Below are positions 142 through 9,561 of a DNA stretch of 43,996 nt, one piece after another. Under the pieces are notes generated by a model. The model made no database searches. It saw nothing but the letters and a program-made list of their open reading frames with translations, and was not told the DNA's origin. This DNA comes from Acetatifactor sp. (GTDB lineage: Bacteria > Bacillota > Clostridia > Lachnospirales > Lachnospiraceae): NCBI GenBank assembly GCA_018385425.1, contig JAHBAA010000047.1, positions 1 to 43,996 on the forward strand, given 5' to 3'. Every line of letters begins with the position of its first letter. Positions within the stretch are counted from its first letter, which is position 1. The translations under genes were made by a program, and so were the position numbers.

Positions 142-173
142 AAAGGGCTTCCATTGTGGCGGAAGCCCTTTTT
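142..173 (+). terminator. Rho-independent terminator
   Basis: AAAGGGCTTCC (142-152) pairs with GGAAGCCCTTT (161-171), with a T-rich 3' tail. Confidence 0.85.
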
Positions 174-209: not shown

Positions 210-238
210 TTGAAAAAAGTGAGCGGAATTGGTATACT
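210..238 (+). promoter_or_regulatory. Sigma-A-like promoter for the AAA+/HD/alarmone synthetase genes
   Basis: TTGAAA - 17 nt - TATACT, upstream of the ATG at 297. Confidence 0.6.
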
Positions 239-296: not shown

Positions 297-2522
297 ATGA
301 GCTATAGTTTGGATGATTTTTTCAATGGTCTGGGAAGTGTTGGCAAGCCCAATTATTCACTGGAGCAGATCGAGGCAGCTAAGAAGAGACAGAAAAAGAA
401 GGGGGGCTCCTTCCTGGAGAATCTGGAGGCTGTGGCGTCTGAAAAAGAGGATGTCGGGAGAAATCCGGCGGAAAAGAAGACTGTGGGGAAGGAGAAGCCT
501 GCAGCAAAAGGAAAGACTTCCGGGCCGGAAACGGCCGGTACTGTATTGTCCGGTATGGAGCAGGATCTGCAGAGAATGCAGGGGGCACTTGATCGGGCGA
601 GGGCAGCCCAGGAGGCGGTGAGCCGCGCATCCACCAGAACGACGGAGGATGTGGCTGCCAGCATCCGGGAGCTGAATGAAAGCATTGCGAGAGATTTCGG
701 CACACTTCCCTCAGGGGATATGACGACGACATCTGCACCGAAGGCCGCTGAGGCACCCGACAAGGAGACTGTGCTGGAGCATTTCCGGGGACTGAATGTT
801 TCTCTGCAGGAGAAGGTATTCGGGCAGGATGATTTCCTGAAGAAGCTGGTGATCGCCTTTAAGCGCCCCTTTGTGTCCGAGAGGGATCACAACGATGCCA
901 TGAACAGCATCTATCTTACCGGTCCTGCCTGCTGTGGGAAGCACTATGCTCTGTCCGTTCTGACGAAAGAGCTTCACAGCCGCGGGATCATCGGCAGTGA
1001 GGAGATCTATTCGATGGATCTGTCGCTGTATCCGGGCGCTGCCGAGGAGAAGATATTCCTGCAGGATCTGTACGCTGCACTGCAGAGCAAGGCTGCAGTG
1101 ATCTTATTTGAAAATCTGGAGAACTGCCACATCTCTCTGCTCGGCAGACTCAGTGATCTGGTGGCCACCGGAGAGTGTAAGCTGTCCGAGCGCTATGTGA
1201 TGCAGAACGGTCAGCTGATCAATGTGGCAAATGCCTTTGCCGGCAATACCATCGGTTCCTTTGAGGCCAAGGGAAAATATCTGGTATTCTTAAGCTCCAA
1301 GCCGGTGGACAAGCTGGCTGCAGTGATGGGAGCACCCTTTGTCAATGCCCTGGGCGATATCTGCGTGGCGGAGAAGCTTTCGGAGGAAGCAATCAGAAAA
1401 ATCGTGTCAGAGGAAGAAAAGAAGCTGACCTTGAAGTGCAGGAAGCAGCTCTCCTACGAGGTGACCCTGGAGGAAAGCTTCCGAGAGTATCTGCTGGGCC
1501 AGACCTCCAGAGGCCGGGGACTTCGCGGGGTGCTGGACAGCTATCTGGATACGGTGAAGGCGCTGACCGAGCTTCGTCTGGAGAGGGACGATCTGTCTAC
1601 CAATGTCTTGACAGTGAAGTGTGTGGAAGGGGCTCCGGTGATCGTGGCCGGAGAGGAAGAAATCTCTATGCTTTCCCTGCTGCCTTCCGGCTACAACGGG
1701 GAACTGGATGCTGTGAAGGCGGAGATGGATTCCATCGTCGGTCTGAAAGAAGTAAAGGAATATATCTACAGTCTGGAGGAGTACTTCGGCGTTCAGAAGC
1801 GCAGACGGGAGGCCGGACTGAAGGCGGGAGAGGTCAACAAGCATATGATCTTTACCGGCAATCCCGGAACCGGAAAGACAACCATCGCCCGTATCGTCAG
1901 CAAATACTTAAAGGCTATCGGCGTGCTTTCCGGCGGTCAGCTGGTGGAGGTCTCCAGAGCGGATCTGGTAGGCCGATACGTTGGACATACAGCGCCCCTG
2001 GTCAATCAGGTGATCAAGTCCGCCATCGGCGGCGTTCTCTTTATCGATGAGGCCTACAGCCTGCACAGAGGCAGGGAGGACAGCTTCGGTCTGGAAGCCA
2101 TCGATACACTGGTAAAGGGAATCGAGGACAATCGCGATGACTTGATCGTCATTCTGGCGGGATATTCCAATGAGATGGAGGAGTTTTTGCAGTCCAACTC
2201 CGGACTGAAGAGCCGTTTTCCCAATATCATCGACTTCCCGGATTATACCGGCGAGGAACTTTTGGCGATTGCCAGGCTGACGGCAAAGGGCAAGGGCTAT
2301 CAGATCGATGAGGCAGCGGAGGCAAAGCTTCTGGCATATTTTGATTTTGTACAGGCTACCCGCGCCAAGGATGCGGGCAACGGACGTCTGGTCCGCAACA
2401 AAGTGGAGGAGGCGATCTTGAATCAGTCCAGAAGACTGGTGGCTGAGCCGGACGCAGATCTCTCCCTGCTGTTGGAGATGGATTTTGAACTGGAAGAGTT
2501 CGGAGAGAGGATGGACGGATGA
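297..2522 (+). CDS. Double AAA+ protein: degenerate ClpB-like AAA domain plus CbbX/SpoVK-like AAA domain
   Basis: C-terminal AAA has intact GNPGTGKT (1857-1880) and VLFIDEAYSL. N-terminal AAA has GPACCGKH (921-944) and ILFENLE in place of Walker A/B consensus. Confidence 0.85.
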   Translation: MSYSLDDFFNGLGSVGKPNYSLEQIEAAKKRQKKKGGSFLENLEAVASEKEDVGRNPAEKKTVGKEKPAAKGKTSGPETAGTVLSGMEQDLQRMQGALDRARAAQEAVSRASTRTTEDVAASIRELNESIARDFGTLPSGDMTTTSAPKAAEAPDKETVLEHFRGLNVSLQEKVFGQDDFLKKLVIAFKRPFVSERDHNDAMNSIYLTGPACCGKHYALSVLTKELHSRGIIGSEEIYSMDLSLYPGAAEEKIFLQDLYAALQSKAAVILFENLENCHISLLGRLSDLVATGECKLSERYVMQNGQLINVANAFAGNTIGSFEAKGKYLVFLSSKPVDKLAAVMGAPFVNALGDICVAEKLSEEAIRKIVSEEEKKLTLKCRKQLSYEVTLEESFREYLLGQTSRGRGLRGVLDSYLDTVKALTELRLERDDLSTNVLTVKCVEGAPVIVAGEEEISMLSLLPSGYNGELDAVKAEMDSIVGLKEVKEYIYSLEEYFGVQKRRREAGLKAGEVNKHMIFTGNPGTGKTTIARIVSKYLKAIGVLSGGQLVEVSRADLVGRYVGHTAPLVNQVIKSAIGGVLFIDEAYSLHRGREDSFGLEAIDTLVKGIEDNRDDLIVILAGYSNEMEEFLQSNSGLKSRFPNIIDFPDYTGEELLAIARLTAKGKGYQIDEAAEAKLLAYFDFVQATRAKDAGNGRLVRNKVEEAILNQSRRLVAEPDADLSLLLEMDFELEEFGERMDG

Positions 2523-3007
2523 GGCTTCAGATCAAAAATCGCAGATCCAGACTTTCTTCTAAAGAGCAGAGCGAATTTTCCGGTCTTCTGGGAGGATGGG
2601 CGGACTCTCCCAAAATTGTGGAGATGAAGAAATTTATCCAGCATGGAAGTGTGGATACTTATGCGCACTGCAAAAAGGTGGCGGAGACCAGTTTTTGGCT
2701 GAGCCGAAGACTCCATATGAAGGTGGATGAGAAAAGCTTGGTTCGGGGAGCTCTGCTGCATGATTTCTATCTGTATGACTGGCATGACGGGAAACCGGAG
2801 AGAAAAAGACATGGCTTTACACACCCGTTGGTTGCTCTGGCCAATGCAGACAGAGAGTTTTCACTGAATGATATCGAGAGGAATATTATCGGCAGTCACA
2901 TGTGGCCGCTGACGCTGCGGCGTGTGCCGCGCTGTAAGGAAGCGGTACTGGTATGCCTGGCGGATAAACAGTGCAGTCTGATCGAGACACTGTTCTGCCG
3001 CAGATGA
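2519..3007 (+). CDS. Small HD-domain phosphohydrolase-like protein
   Basis: HD-type pattern (YAHCKKVAE...LLHDFYLYDWH...); ATGA overlap with the upstream AAA+ gene. Confidence 0.75.
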   Translation: MRLQIKNRRSRLSSKEQSEFSGLLGGWADSPKIVEMKKFIQHGSVDTYAHCKKVAETSFWLSRRLHMKVDEKSLVRGALLHDFYLYDWHDGKPERKRHGFTHPLVALANADREFSLNDIERNIIGSHMWPLTLRRVPRCKEAVLVCLADKQCSLIETLFCRR

Positions 3008-3026
3008 GCCGATAGGGTGCAATACT

Positions 3027-3713
3027 ATGGAGAAAAGAGAACTTTGGATACAGGAAAATGTCAAGGATGAGAAGGTTCGGCAGATGATCTACAAGCTGGA
3101 TGACTGCAGGGAACTGATGGCCTATTACAGCTGTGCGATCATGGAGATCGAGACCAAATTCAAGGTGCTGAACACCCAGTTTGCCATCAGGAAATCCTAC
3201 AATCCCATTGAGACCATCAAGACCCGTTTGAAATCCATGGAAAGTATCGTGGGAAAGCTGCAGCGCAAGCATCTGCCGATGGATGCAGCAACCATCGAGC
3301 GGGAGTTAAACGATATCGCTGGAGTGAGAGTCATCTGTCCGTTTATCTCAGATATTTATATGCTGGCGGATTGTCTGCTGGAGCAGGACGATATCACCTT
3401 TATCCAGAGAAAGGATTATATCAAACACCCGAAGGAGAATGGCTACAGAAGCCTGCACCTGATCGTGGAGATCCCCATTTTCCTGCAGGGGGAGAAGCGG
3501 CCCATGAAGGTGGAGATCCAGTTCCGCACCATCGCAATGGATTTCTGGGCGAGCTTGGAGCACAGGCTGCGCTATAAGAAGGAGCTGGACAGTGAGGTGG
3601 CTTCCCGGATCTCTGCAGAGCTGACGGACTGTGCAGAGAACAGTGCTGCATTGGATCTTCGCATGGAGCAGGTCAAGGATGCCATAGAGGGGGAAAAAGC
3701 ACTGCCCAGGTAA
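3027..3713 (+). CDS. Small alarmone (p)ppGpp synthetase, RelA/SpoT-domain (YjbM/YwaC-like)
   Basis: Motifs IAGVRVICPF, KENGYRSLHLIVEIP, VEIQFRTIAMDFWASLEHRLRYK typical of RelA/SpoT synthetase domains; no HD or TGS domain. Confidence 0.88.
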   Translation: MEKRELWIQENVKDEKVRQMIYKLDDCRELMAYYSCAIMEIETKFKVLNTQFAIRKSYNPIETIKTRLKSMESIVGKLQRKHLPMDAATIERELNDIAGVRVICPFISDIYMLADCLLEQDDITFIQRKDYIKHPKENGYRSLHLIVEIPIFLQGEKRPMKVEIQFRTIAMDFWASLEHRLRYKKELDSEVASRISAELTDCAENSAALDLRMEQVKDAIEGEKALPR

Positions 3714-5633: not shown

Positions 5634-6050
5634 ATGAATATGGCAGCAAAAATCGCAGCAGAGTATTTGCAGGGAGCAGGAGTGAAGATCGACCAGTTCG
5701 GCGATGACATGGAAGTGATTCAGGCCAGATATTCTGCAGACAACGTAGACCGCGTTGAGGTTAGATTGTTCTTTGACGAGGACAATCGCAGTGTGGCAGT
5801 AAGATCCTTCAATATTTGTAAAGTTGCTGAATCTAAGAAGCCTGCAATTTACGAGACTTGTTCCAAGCTGAACGACAAGTTCCGTTGGGTGAAGTTTTAC
5901 GTTGATGAGGACGACAACACTGTTACGGCAGCTATGGATGCTATCATTCAGCTGGATTCCTGCGGTGAGGAGAGCAAGGAGCTGATCCTTCGTACCGTTG
6001 GAATCGTTGACGACGCATACCCTGAATTGATGAAGGCCTTGTGGGCTTAA
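5634..6050 (+). CDS. YbjN-domain (type III secretion chaperone-fold) protein
   Basis: 138-aa protein resembling YbjN-type proteins, 10 nt upstream of the fusion protease gene; SD aaggagg upstream. Confidence 0.55.
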   Translation: MNMAAKIAAEYLQGAGVKIDQFGDDMEVIQARYSADNVDRVEVRLFFDEDNRSVAVRSFNICKVAESKKPAIYETCSKLNDKFRWVKFYVDEDDNTVTAAMDAIIQLDSCGEESKELILRTVGIVDDAYPELMKALWA

Positions 6051-6060
6051 GGAGACGAAA

Positions 6061-9000
6061 ATGCAGGACGAGATTCTTCAAATCGTAAAGAAATTTGCTG
6101 ATGAGAAGGCCGATGGAAAGCAGGTGACAGTGTATCACCTGCTTTCTGGGTATATTAAGCTTCTCACCATGAACACAAATGCACTGAACGTGATGTTCAG
6201 CGAGAACTCCTCCATGGACAAGGTGAAGGAGATGTATAACACCCTGGAGAGCGAGAACATCGATATCCAGCTGATGCGGCAGGCCTTCCCGCTGATTCTG
6301 GTGTATTCCGGAGATGATGCGGAAAAGAATGTCTGTGTGGGGGATACCATCAAGTCCTATGGAGAGAATTCCAATTCCGTAGAGATCTTCAAGGAGATCA
6401 TGAAGCTGAAGCTTCCCGAACTGGAACTGGTCAAGAAAGGCCGTACACTCAACGACACTCTGACCTATGTGGAGCAGAGATCCGAGGAGAGAGCAGCCAA
6501 GGAGAAGGAAGCCAAGGAGGCAAAGAAGGCTGCTGCTGCCAAGGCTGCGGAGGAGGGAGAACAGACCGGGGAACCTCAAACCGAACAGAAGGAGAAGGAG
6601 AATTCCACACCTGAGGCTCCGCAGGAGGACACCGTCAATCGGGAGCAACAGGAGAAAATGGAGGGGCGAAAGGCATTCCAGGATATCATTATGTCCTCCA
6701 AAAAGCTGTACTCCAATCTTCTCAGCAGAGTAAAGGGACAGGATGAGGCGATCCGCACCTTCGTAGAAGGGTATTTCCAGTCAGAGGTATTCCGTGCCAA
6801 GGAACAGCAGAAAAAACCCAGCGCAGTGTTCCTGTTTGCGGGACCGCCCGGAGTGGGTAAGACGTATCTGGCAGAGACAGCCGCCGAATTTCTGGGGCTT
6901 CCTTTTGCCAGATTTGATATGAGTGAATACTGTGACTATAATTCCAACGGTATGTTTGCCGGAGATGAGAAGAAGTACACCGGTGCAAAGCCCGGTGCAG
7001 TTACTTCCTTTGTGGCCGAGCATCCCAGAAGTGTGATCCTCTTCGATGAGATCGAGAAGGCACATGTGAACATTATCTTCCTGTTCCTTCAGATCCTGGA
7101 CGGAGGAATTCTGACGGACAACTATACGACGAAGCAGGTTTCCTTCAAGGATACGATTCTGCTGTTTACCACCAATGTAGGTCGTTCTCTGTATGAGAAG
7201 AAGAATGAGATGAACCTTTCCACTCTGCCCAAATCCGTGGTGCTGGATGCCATCAAGAAGGAAAAGAATGAGAGAGGCGATCTGGCTTTCCCCAGCGCCA
7301 TCTGTTCCAGATTCGCTTCGGGAAATGTGGTAATGTTCAATCACCTGGAGACCTATCATCTGGTGGATATCGTGCAGGAGAGATTCGAGGCCACCGGAAA
7401 GATGGCAAAGGAGATGTACAGCTACAATCTGATGATCGACCCCAGACTTTCCACCATGTTTCTGTTCAATCAGGGCAGCAATCTGGATGCCAGAACCGCT
7501 TCCAGCCAGAGCTCCATCATGATCAAGAATGAACTCTATGAGTTTGCCAGACATGTGGACAAGCCGCAGGAGGTATTTGAGACCGTAGACAGCTTTACCT
7601 TCACCGTGGATATTCCCAAGGAGAAGTGCGAGGTGAGAGATCTGTTCATTAACTCAGAACAGATGGAGGTGCTTTGCTTCGCGGATGCAGGGGAATTCCC
7701 GGTGGCTGAGACGGAAAAATATAAGCTGGATTATGTGCAGGATATTGAGACGGCCAAGGCACGTCTGCAGAAGAAGGAATATTCCTTCGTCCTGACAGAT
7801 CTGATGTATGGCGGTGTAGAAGTAGATCAGAATCTCTTGAGTCTGGATGACTACGGCACACAGGGTATCGCATTCTTCAAGTGGATCCGGGATTGTTTCC
7901 CCTCTATCCCTGTATACATACTGGAACAGAAGGCTATCAGCATGGAGGACAAGGCAACCTTCCTGCAGCGCGGTGCAAGAGGCTTTGTGGCGGCAGAGGA
8001 CAAGCGCACACTGGAGCGGGAACTGGATCGTCTGGCCGACATTGTCTATCTGCAGCACAGAGCGGACGAGCTCTCCAACCGTCATAAGATCCTGTCCTAC
8101 AACACCATGCAGTATGTTTCTGAGGACAAGAAGAGAGCGTTCATCAAATTCTATGATTTTAAGATCAAGAAGGCCGTGACTGCGGATGCACAGGATGTGA
8201 TGATGGCTGAAAACCAACGGCCTACAGAGAGATTCTCGGATGTGTTCGGCGCTGAAAATGCAAAAGAGGAGCTGAGATACTTCGTGGACTATATGAGATC
8301 TCCCAAGAAGTATATCATTGACGGTGTGCGCCAGCCCAAGGGAATCCTGCTCTATGGACCTCCCGGAACCGGTAAGACCATGTTGGCCAAGGCAATGGCC
8401 GGTGAGTCCAATGCTTCCTTCTTCCCTGTGACAGCCACAGGATTTATGGATAAGTATGTGGGCGAAAGCGAGAGAAAGATCCGCGACCTGTTCGCAATGG
8501 CAAAGAACTATGCCCCTGCCATCATCTTCATCGATGAGATCGATGCCATCGGCAAGGAACGTACCGGAAGCAGCAGCACTGCCCATACCGAGTCTATGCT
8601 CAATGCCCTGCTGACCGAGATGGACGGCTTCGAGGTGGACACAAAGAGACCGGTATTCGTGCTGGCAGCTACCAACTTTGATCTGGACGGCACGACCTCC
8701 GGCAAGCAGTCTGCCATTGATCCTGCGCTTCTTCGACGGTTTGACAACCGCATCTATGTGGATCTGCCCAACGAGGAAGAGAGAAAAGCTTATCTGCAAA
8801 ACCGTCTGGAGAAGTATAAGATCACGACAGTCAAGGAAGGCACCATCGACAATATTGCGAAGCGTACCACCGGAGAGAGTCTGGCGATCCTGCAGAATGT
8901 GTTTGAACTGGCAGTGAGAAATGCCAGAAAGAAGGGTGCGTCTGTGACGGATGAAGACCTGCTCAACGCGCTGGAGGAGTATATGTACGGCGAGAAACAC

Positions 9001-9561
9001 GAGTGGGACGAGTCCTACTATAAGGAGGTATCCATCCACGAATCCGGACATGCCCTGGTTCACTGGCTGGCAGGAAAGGAACCCTCCTTCGTCACCATCG
9101 TATCCAGAGGCAACTTCGGCGGCTATATGATGCCTGAGAACGGAGAGAAAACGCCCAACAGGACCAAGGAGGACATGATCTGGCACATTCGTACCTGTCT
9201 GGCCGGAAGAGCCGCAGAGTTGGTGTTCTACGGGGAGAAGAAGGGAATCAACACCGGTGTATCCTCCGACCTGAAAAATGCTACCTCCACTGCGCTTCAT
9301 ATGCTGAACACTTACGGCATGGGTGACAGCTCTATGCTGGCAATGGATCCCAGTCTGATGCAGTCCAGCCCGGAGAGAAGTACGAAGCTTCTGGAGGAGG
9401 CGGATGCGATCCTGAAGAGGGAGCTTCCGATCACCATGAAACTCATCGAAGAGCACAGAGATCTGATCGAGGAACTTTCCGGACGGCTGATGAAGAAGAA
9501 TCAGTTGGTTCGCGAGGAGATTCTGGAGGTCTTTGAGGGGAAAACTCCCAAAGCAGAATAG
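6061..9561 (+). CDS. Fusion protein: N-terminal region, ClpA/B-type AAA+, receiver-like domain, FtsH-type AAA+, M41 zinc metalloprotease
   Basis: AAA1 GPPGVGKT (6841-6864) and VILFDEIEKAH. Receiver-like VLTDLM near 7800. AAA2 GPPGTGKT (8356-8379) and IIFIDEIDAIG. HESGH zinc site (9037-9051) and SSDLKNAT (Asp codon 9268-9270). Confidence 0.92.
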   Translation: MQDEILQIVKKFADEKADGKQVTVYHLLSGYIKLLTMNTNALNVMFSENSSMDKVKEMYNTLESENIDIQLMRQAFPLILVYSGDDAEKNVCVGDTIKSYGENSNSVEIFKEIMKLKLPELELVKKGRTLNDTLTYVEQRSEERAAKEKEAKEAKKAAAAKAAEEGEQTGEPQTEQKEKENSTPEAPQEDTVNREQQEKMEGRKAFQDIIMSSKKLYSNLLSRVKGQDEAIRTFVEGYFQSEVFRAKEQQKKPSAVFLFAGPPGVGKTYLAETAAEFLGLPFARFDMSEYCDYNSNGMFAGDEKKYTGAKPGAVTSFVAEHPRSVILFDEIEKAHVNIIFLFLQILDGGILTDNYTTKQVSFKDTILLFTTNVGRSLYEKKNEMNLSTLPKSVVLDAIKKEKNERGDLAFPSAICSRFASGNVVMFNHLETYHLVDIVQERFEATGKMAKEMYSYNLMIDPRLSTMFLFNQGSNLDARTASSQSSIMIKNELYEFARHVDKPQEVFETVDSFTFTVDIPKEKCEVRDLFINSEQMEVLCFADAGEFPVAETEKYKLDYVQDIETAKARLQKKEYSFVLTDLMYGGVEVDQNLLSLDDYGTQGIAFFKWIRDCFPSIPVYILEQKAISMEDKATFLQRGARGFVAAEDKRTLERELDRLADIVYLQHRADELSNRHKILSYNTMQYVSEDKKRAFIKFYDFKIKKAVTADAQDVMMAENQRPTERFSDVFGAENAKEELRYFVDYMRSPKKYIIDGVRQPKGILLYGPPGTGKTMLAKAMAGESNASFFPVTATGFMDKYVGESERKIRDLFAMAKNYAPAIIFIDEIDAIGKERTGSSSTAHTESMLNALLTEMDGFEVDTKRPVFVLAATNFDLDGTTSGKQSAIDPALLRRFDNRIYVDLPNEEERKAYLQNRLEKYKITTVKEGTIDNIAKRTTGESLAILQNVFELAVRNARKKGASVTDEDLLNALEEYMYGEKHEWDESYYKEVSIHESGHALVHWLAGKEPSFVTIVSRGNFGGYMMPENGEKTPNRTKEDMIWHIRTCLAGRAAELVFYGEKKGINTGVSSDLKNATSTALHMLNTYGMGDSSMLAMDPSLMQSSPERSTKLLEEADAILKRELPITMKLIEEHRDLIEELSGRLMKKNQLVREEILEVFEGKTPKAE

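Follow-up and report, generated by a model that had tools for sequence, protein, structure and literature searches.

CbbX, SpoVK and EccA form one clade of classical AAA+ proteins that act as dedicated-client chaperones (PMC10659427). Members of this clade show no peptidase association, differ in their N-terminal domains, through which substrates may be recruited, and share three markers, namely a GY signature, a conserved Asn four residues ahead of the first arginine finger, and a second arginine finger (PMC10659427). Another described system of relevance is Pex1/6, in which ATPase and pore-loop residues are missing from the D1 ring and the D2 ring does the work (PMC4490564). Here we analysed a gene in a 43,996-nucleotide stretch of DNA from the gut bacterium Acetatifactor sp. 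(hereafter the window). Its product joins a CbbX-type motor to a catalytically dead domain related to the D2 of Clp proteins, an architecture of which we found no description in the freely accessible literature searched.

The gene lies at 297..2522 on the forward strand of the window, starts with ATG downstream of a GGAGG-like site, and encodes 741 residues. According to ORF and domain analysis, these comprise an N-terminal mini-domain, a tether with a coil, the dead Clp D2-like AAA+ domain and the CbbX-type AAA+ domain. Since a terminator-like hairpin with a T run (142..171, forward strand; consensus scan only), at the end of the preceding unit, and a sigma-70-like promoter with an extended -10 element (TTGAAA-17-TATACT, 210..238, forward strand; consensus match only) precede the gene, it probably starts a separate transcription unit. 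Downstream, in the arrangement at 2519-3713, the ATG of an HD-domain gene at 2519 overlaps the stop codon by 4 bp and a RelA/SpoT-domain gene comes next. This arrangement is not kept in relatives, and we rejected the two genes as conserved partners. Close to the N terminus, residues 18-52 (348..452, forward strand) form a conserved two-helix element with the family consensus NYTxEEIxxAxKRxKKxGGTLxENL. The element has no match in Pfam, and it is possible that it is a recruiting or autoinhibitory part. A long helix is predicted at residues 86-134 (552..698, forward strand) within a poorly conserved tether, and the inter-domain arrangement in the full-length monomer prediction is uncertain (pTM 0.45).

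Profile and structure matches as well as Pfam place a CbbX/SpoVK-type AAA+ domain with AAA_lid_6 at residues 470-741 (1704..2519, forward strand). Pfam AAA and AAA_lid_6 both match this C-terminal half (PF17866, AAA_lid_6, 46.4 bits against a cut-off of 24.3), profile comparison with a solved CbbX gave 255 bits, and the best Foldseek matches are CbbX, with solved CbbX 41-44% identical to the motor in structural alignment. Its Walker A GNPGTGKT (residues 521-528, 1857..1880) and Walker B FIDEAY (residues 582-587, 2040..2057), both on the forward strand, are intact. As for the clade markers, the GY signature in the sensor-1 region (G622-Y623) is invariant in 38 sequences, and the sensor-2/second arginine finger is present as GNGRxVRN with R697 and R700 invariant. 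Asn634 is also invariant and is followed by Lys638 at +4 and by an invariant Arg640 at +6, so the verdict on the spacing depends on the finger residue chosen. The NCBIfam cut-offs were not reached for SpoVK (309 versus 423 bits), EccA (240 versus 467) or CbbX (234 versus 459). Judged by the sequence of its motor, the protein may best be filed as a member of the SpoVK/CbbX/EccA clade, with which it shares the GY and second-finger markers of the C-terminal AAA+ domain and a layout in which the conserved motor is preceded by an N-terminal domain of variable type. The CbbX half is ~80% identical throughout the window's Lachnospiraceae branch, with pairwise dN/dS of 0.01-0.06. The same genome also encodes a tandem CbbX protein of 940 residues (L078:4921-7743) whose CbbX-type motors are 45-46% identical to that of the window protein. 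Unlike the latter, it has no dead Clp domain, and its neighbours are radical-SAM-like (CxxCxxC-type motif, GGEPM) and coiled-coil-rich proteins encoded with it on one strand (L078:270-7743, contig C127).

The N-terminal half has no strong Pfam match, and Pfam AAA_2 misses the domain within it. Profile comparison nevertheless aligned this half with the D2 region of ClpC/ClpB (E 2e-10), and the AlphaFold model of the domain (pLDDT 91) had NBD2 of ClpA, ClpB and ClpC as its best Foldseek matches, with TM up to 0.74. Together with the alignment, these data define a catalytically dead Clp/Hsp100 D2-like AAA+ domain at approximately residues 155-446 (759..1634, forward strand). Its Walker A is the degenerate GPACCGKH (residues 209-216, 921..944, forward strand), in which Thr/Ser is replaced by His216, and its Walker B is ILFENLE (residues 269-275, 1101..1121, forward strand), in which the catalytic Glu is replaced by Asn273 and the Asp by Glu272. 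All four motifs, degenerate and intact, read in the ORF translation exactly as in an earlier sequence-only reading of this DNA. That reading had also held that the surrounding sequence keeps a ClpB-like layout, which applies to the Hsp100 D2 fold but not to its working parts, since in an alignment with Clp proteins the window protein lacks the substrate pore loop (GYVG region) and has a replacement at the arginine finger. In addition, alignment and predicted secondary structure give a stretch from the sensor-1 strand to the finger of ~17 residues in the window protein versus ~46 in ClpC; the ClpP-docking loop therefore appears to be missing too. The domain thus shares with the D2 of ClpA, ClpB and ClpC the fold and the sequence in which its elements follow each other, down to the C-terminal small domain, whereas it differs from them in the loss of the Walker A Thr (in its branch), the catalytic Glu, the pore loop, the arginine finger and, apparently, the ClpP loop.

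To place these substitutions in the family, we compared 60 distinct homologous dead domains from Clostridia, some near-identical relatives among them. One genome scan had supplied 38 loci, nearly all from Lachnospiraceae, and profile searches of Clostridia added more, including some from other families; a phylum-wide sample of 300 genomes contained no further member. The domain precedes a single CbbX domain in the window's type (form I), whereas other Clostridia have the same dead domain ahead of 2-4 CbbX domains. Form II combines an N-terminal FLFPEyQI...GFI element with 2-4 CbbX domains, and form III is minimal, with three CbbX domains of which the third is degenerate; the longest family members have 1204-1501 residues and 4-5 AAA+ modules. 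In one form-III copy (L133:7062-10631, genome G685), an in-frame stop cuts the dead domain off from the CbbX part; G685 also has an uninterrupted form-II copy (L126). The Walker-B catalytic Glu was found in 0/60 dead domains, the Clp pore loop GYVG in 0/60, and the Clp arginine finger likewise in 0/60. Within the Lachnospiraceae branch with a single CbbX domain, H216 is invariant as the last residue of a Walker A that closes with G[KR]H, and Walker B is mostly FEN, with H or R for N in a few. Among single-CbbX members, about 40% have Arg for the Lys, and the catalytic position holds N, H, R or G and never E. A few distant members retain GKT or GRT in Walker A. We also considered a His216-Glu272 pair in place of the Mg site and did not adopt it, as the two positions vary independently outside the Lachnospiraceae branch. 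Pairwise dN/dS of the dead domain is ~0.02-0.08 when close relatives are paired; in the two pairs that set the window against its nearest relatives, for which dS is high, it is 0.15-0.17.

These patterns indicate that the inactivation is ancient and maintained under purifying selection. Non-canonical Walker motifs would look no different, in the window alone, if a once functional ClpB-like domain were decaying in this strain. However, the same loss occurs in every homologue and dN/dS is low, and we rejected strain-specific decay as having practically no chance of being correct. The check that the sequence-only reading had proposed, on conservation of its H and EN substitutions, thus bore the reading out, with H216 invariant in the window's branch and the catalytic Glu gone throughout. 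Homologues with canonical Walker motifs, named beforehand as counter-evidence, were looked for among the 60 Clostridia domains and not found. Its central claim, that one protein joins a Clp-like AAA+ domain devoid of catalysis to a CbbX/SpoVK-type domain that is apparently active, therefore holds as a conserved feature under purifying selection.

Because the P-loop glycines and the Lys/Arg are largely retained, the dead domain may still bind nucleotide. We accordingly considered that the domain might sense a nucleotide or another ligand through GxxxTG[KR]H without hydrolysis, or hydrolyse in a non-canonical way. The invariance of H216 in the branch fits such a role, as does the binding of nucleotide by the D1 of Pex6, which has a reduced Walker A (PMC4490564). 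Against it stand the absence of both the catalytic Glu and the arginine finger from 60/60 domains, the frequent Lys-to-Arg change, and form III, in which even the P-loop is broken (e.g. GTFKK). We regard this role as unlikely.

The sequence-only reading had further suggested a possible kinship with the ClpB-like domain of a fusion protease encoded downstream. This 1166-residue protein (window 6061-9561), with a YbjN-like gene (5634-6050) directly upstream, consists of a ClpB-like D2 AAA+ domain, a middle region, an FtsH-type AAA+ domain and an M41 peptidase. Its ClpB-like domain is canonical (GPPGVGKT, FDEIEKAH), and in a 43-row tree all dead domains fell on one side of a 100/100 branch with the fusion domain on the Clp side, although its exact place is unsure given the long branches. 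The two domains are thus not sisters, a result that refutes the claim of relationship and leaves the rest of the reading untouched. Relatives of the fusion were present in 2/60 related genomes (L082, L083), neither of which carries the window gene, and the fusion was absent from 6 other genomes with the window gene or a tandem cousin. A partnership between the two proteins, 3.5 kb apart, might be suspected from their shared contig and strand and from the Hsp100 D2-like domain in each. Yet they co-occur in none of 61 genomes except the window's own, their domains are separated by the 100/100 split, and the genes in between are unrelated, which makes such a partnership very improbable. As far as these data go, the two genes appear to be neighbours by chance.

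The window gene is patchily distributed, being present in 7/250 Lachnospiraceae genomes sampled at about one per genus. Within the window's own genus only some species carry it, and the occurrence there of two well-separated versions suggests horizontal transfer. Gene context varies widely, with no conserved neighbour or peptidase partner among the relatives' loci. A protein with TPR/DUF4037/DUF4125 domains, encoded directly upstream in L050 and, with one more gene in between, upstream in L044, was dismissed as a specific partner, as it is found both in genomes that carry the window gene and in genomes that do not. Ten rows, which make up one side of a branch supported at 85/89, form a clade in which the gene is located inside the gap-pgk cluster, downstream of gap and, contig permitting, upstream of pgk; the 14 other genomes checked also have gap close to pgk, but without this gene. 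This placement looks like a single insertion followed by vertical inheritance. It could also be read as a sign that the protein specifically activates one enzyme of central carbon metabolism, e.g. GAPDH or phosphoglycerate kinase, given that the linkage is real in this clade and that CbbX works on a carbon enzyme. Nevertheless, neighbours are unrelated in the window and in most other clades, in L044 a terminator-like hairpin lies between gap and the gene, the gene is rare while gap and pgk are near-universal, and one vertically inherited insertion explains the clade pattern. We therefore consider a GAPDH or phosphoglycerate kinase activase quite unlikely.

In contrast to the variable context of form I, all 9 of the form-II loci (9/9; L075:799-5550 and L123-L130) are followed by the same two membrane-protein genes, forming a three-gene operon. 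The partners are a small multi-TM protein of ~155 residues and a TM protein of ~230 residues whose highly conserved domain (VWDYAAEDGDYVQV...GGGGITYAV) presumably lies outside the cytoplasm; neither family has a Pfam model above cut-off. All 9 form-II genomes gave strong matches to the partners, as against 0/19 others (28 tested), and three weak matches elsewhere (E 0.002-0.008) were disregarded. As the query alignments were built from those 9 genomes, what is informative is that the 19 others lack the partners. In two Clostridia of different families, a DUF4236-type gene lies directly upstream of the tandem machine (L127:4355-5902, L130:8396-9889); the Pfam match was tested for L127, and the L130 gene is a BLAST relative of it. 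The single-CbbX protein might accordingly be a shortened and soluble form of a machine that is otherwise coupled to the membrane, serving the same envelope process via other partners. The constant presence of the two membrane genes behind form II, and their restriction to those genomes among the 28, would favour this view. On the other hand, neither partner is encoded in any of the 12 single-CbbX Lachnospiraceae genomes tested, and the N-terminal element is not the same in the two branches, so that we hold it to be improbable.

The reading that we prefer, and consider somewhat better than even, is a two-tier AAA+ remodelling chaperone in which the CbbX ring would be the sole motor and the dead Clp ring a non-hydrolysing collar, most likely serving one dedicated client. 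The domain make-up, the family-wide loss of active-site and pore-loop residues, the purifying selection, the intact CbbX motifs and the variable context are observed, and from these we infer ring assembly, client pulling, gating and the dedicated client. The C-terminal CbbX-type domains would form the only ATP-hydrolysing ring and pull a client polypeptide through their conserved pore. The Clp D2-derived collar would hold the oligomer, recruit or orient the client, and probably gate the motor, with the N-terminal helical element on its flexible tether the likeliest recruiting or autoinhibitory part. By clade precedent, in which CbbX acts on Rubisco, SpoVK on MurG and EccA on ESX substrates, one dedicated client would most likely be activated or repaired rather than fed to a protease. 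As for the known clients of the clade, the Rubisco large subunit was found in 0/12 carrier genomes, leaving a role as Rubisco activase unsupported, and WXG100 was above cut-off in only 1/12 carriers (G174) and absent from the window's genome, leaving an EccA-like role in type VII secretion equally unsupported.

The likeness of such a protein to Pex1/Pex6 is one of working principle only, a non-ATPase upper ring over an active ring, with the rings of the window protein inferred. In contrast to Pex1/Pex6, its dead ring would be of Clp origin and not classical AAA, it is expected to be a homo-oligomer, and it is bacterial, with no peroxisome. More tentatively, and at rather long odds, the whole set may be an undescribed Clostridial superfamily that combines a permanently dead, pore-loop-less Clp D2 domain with 1-4 CbbX domains per chain. 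Its longest members may build a ring from few unequal modules, one branch may be connected to a complex of two membrane proteins that includes an extracytoplasmic domain, as a new type of sensor- or envelope-coupled chaperone, and the window protein would be the stand-alone cytosolic version.

Taken together, the window protein represents a branch, undescribed in the literature searched, within a known group of chaperones that repair enzymes. Known members of the clade are dedicated-client chaperones whose variable N-terminal domains are thought to recruit clients, and the text of PMC10659427 names TPR, beta-helix, beta-prism and SF1 helicase domains in that position, with the dead Clp D2 domain absent there. 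In the window protein, this position is taken by a AAA+ domain that derives from another AAA+ lineage, that of Clp, and that has been disabled and kept dead under strong selection. The family also draws attention to a membrane operon of three genes in Clostridia that lacks annotation, and it offers a simple bacterial system in which to ask what inactive AAA+ tiers do, a question left open for Pex1/6 (PMC4490564).
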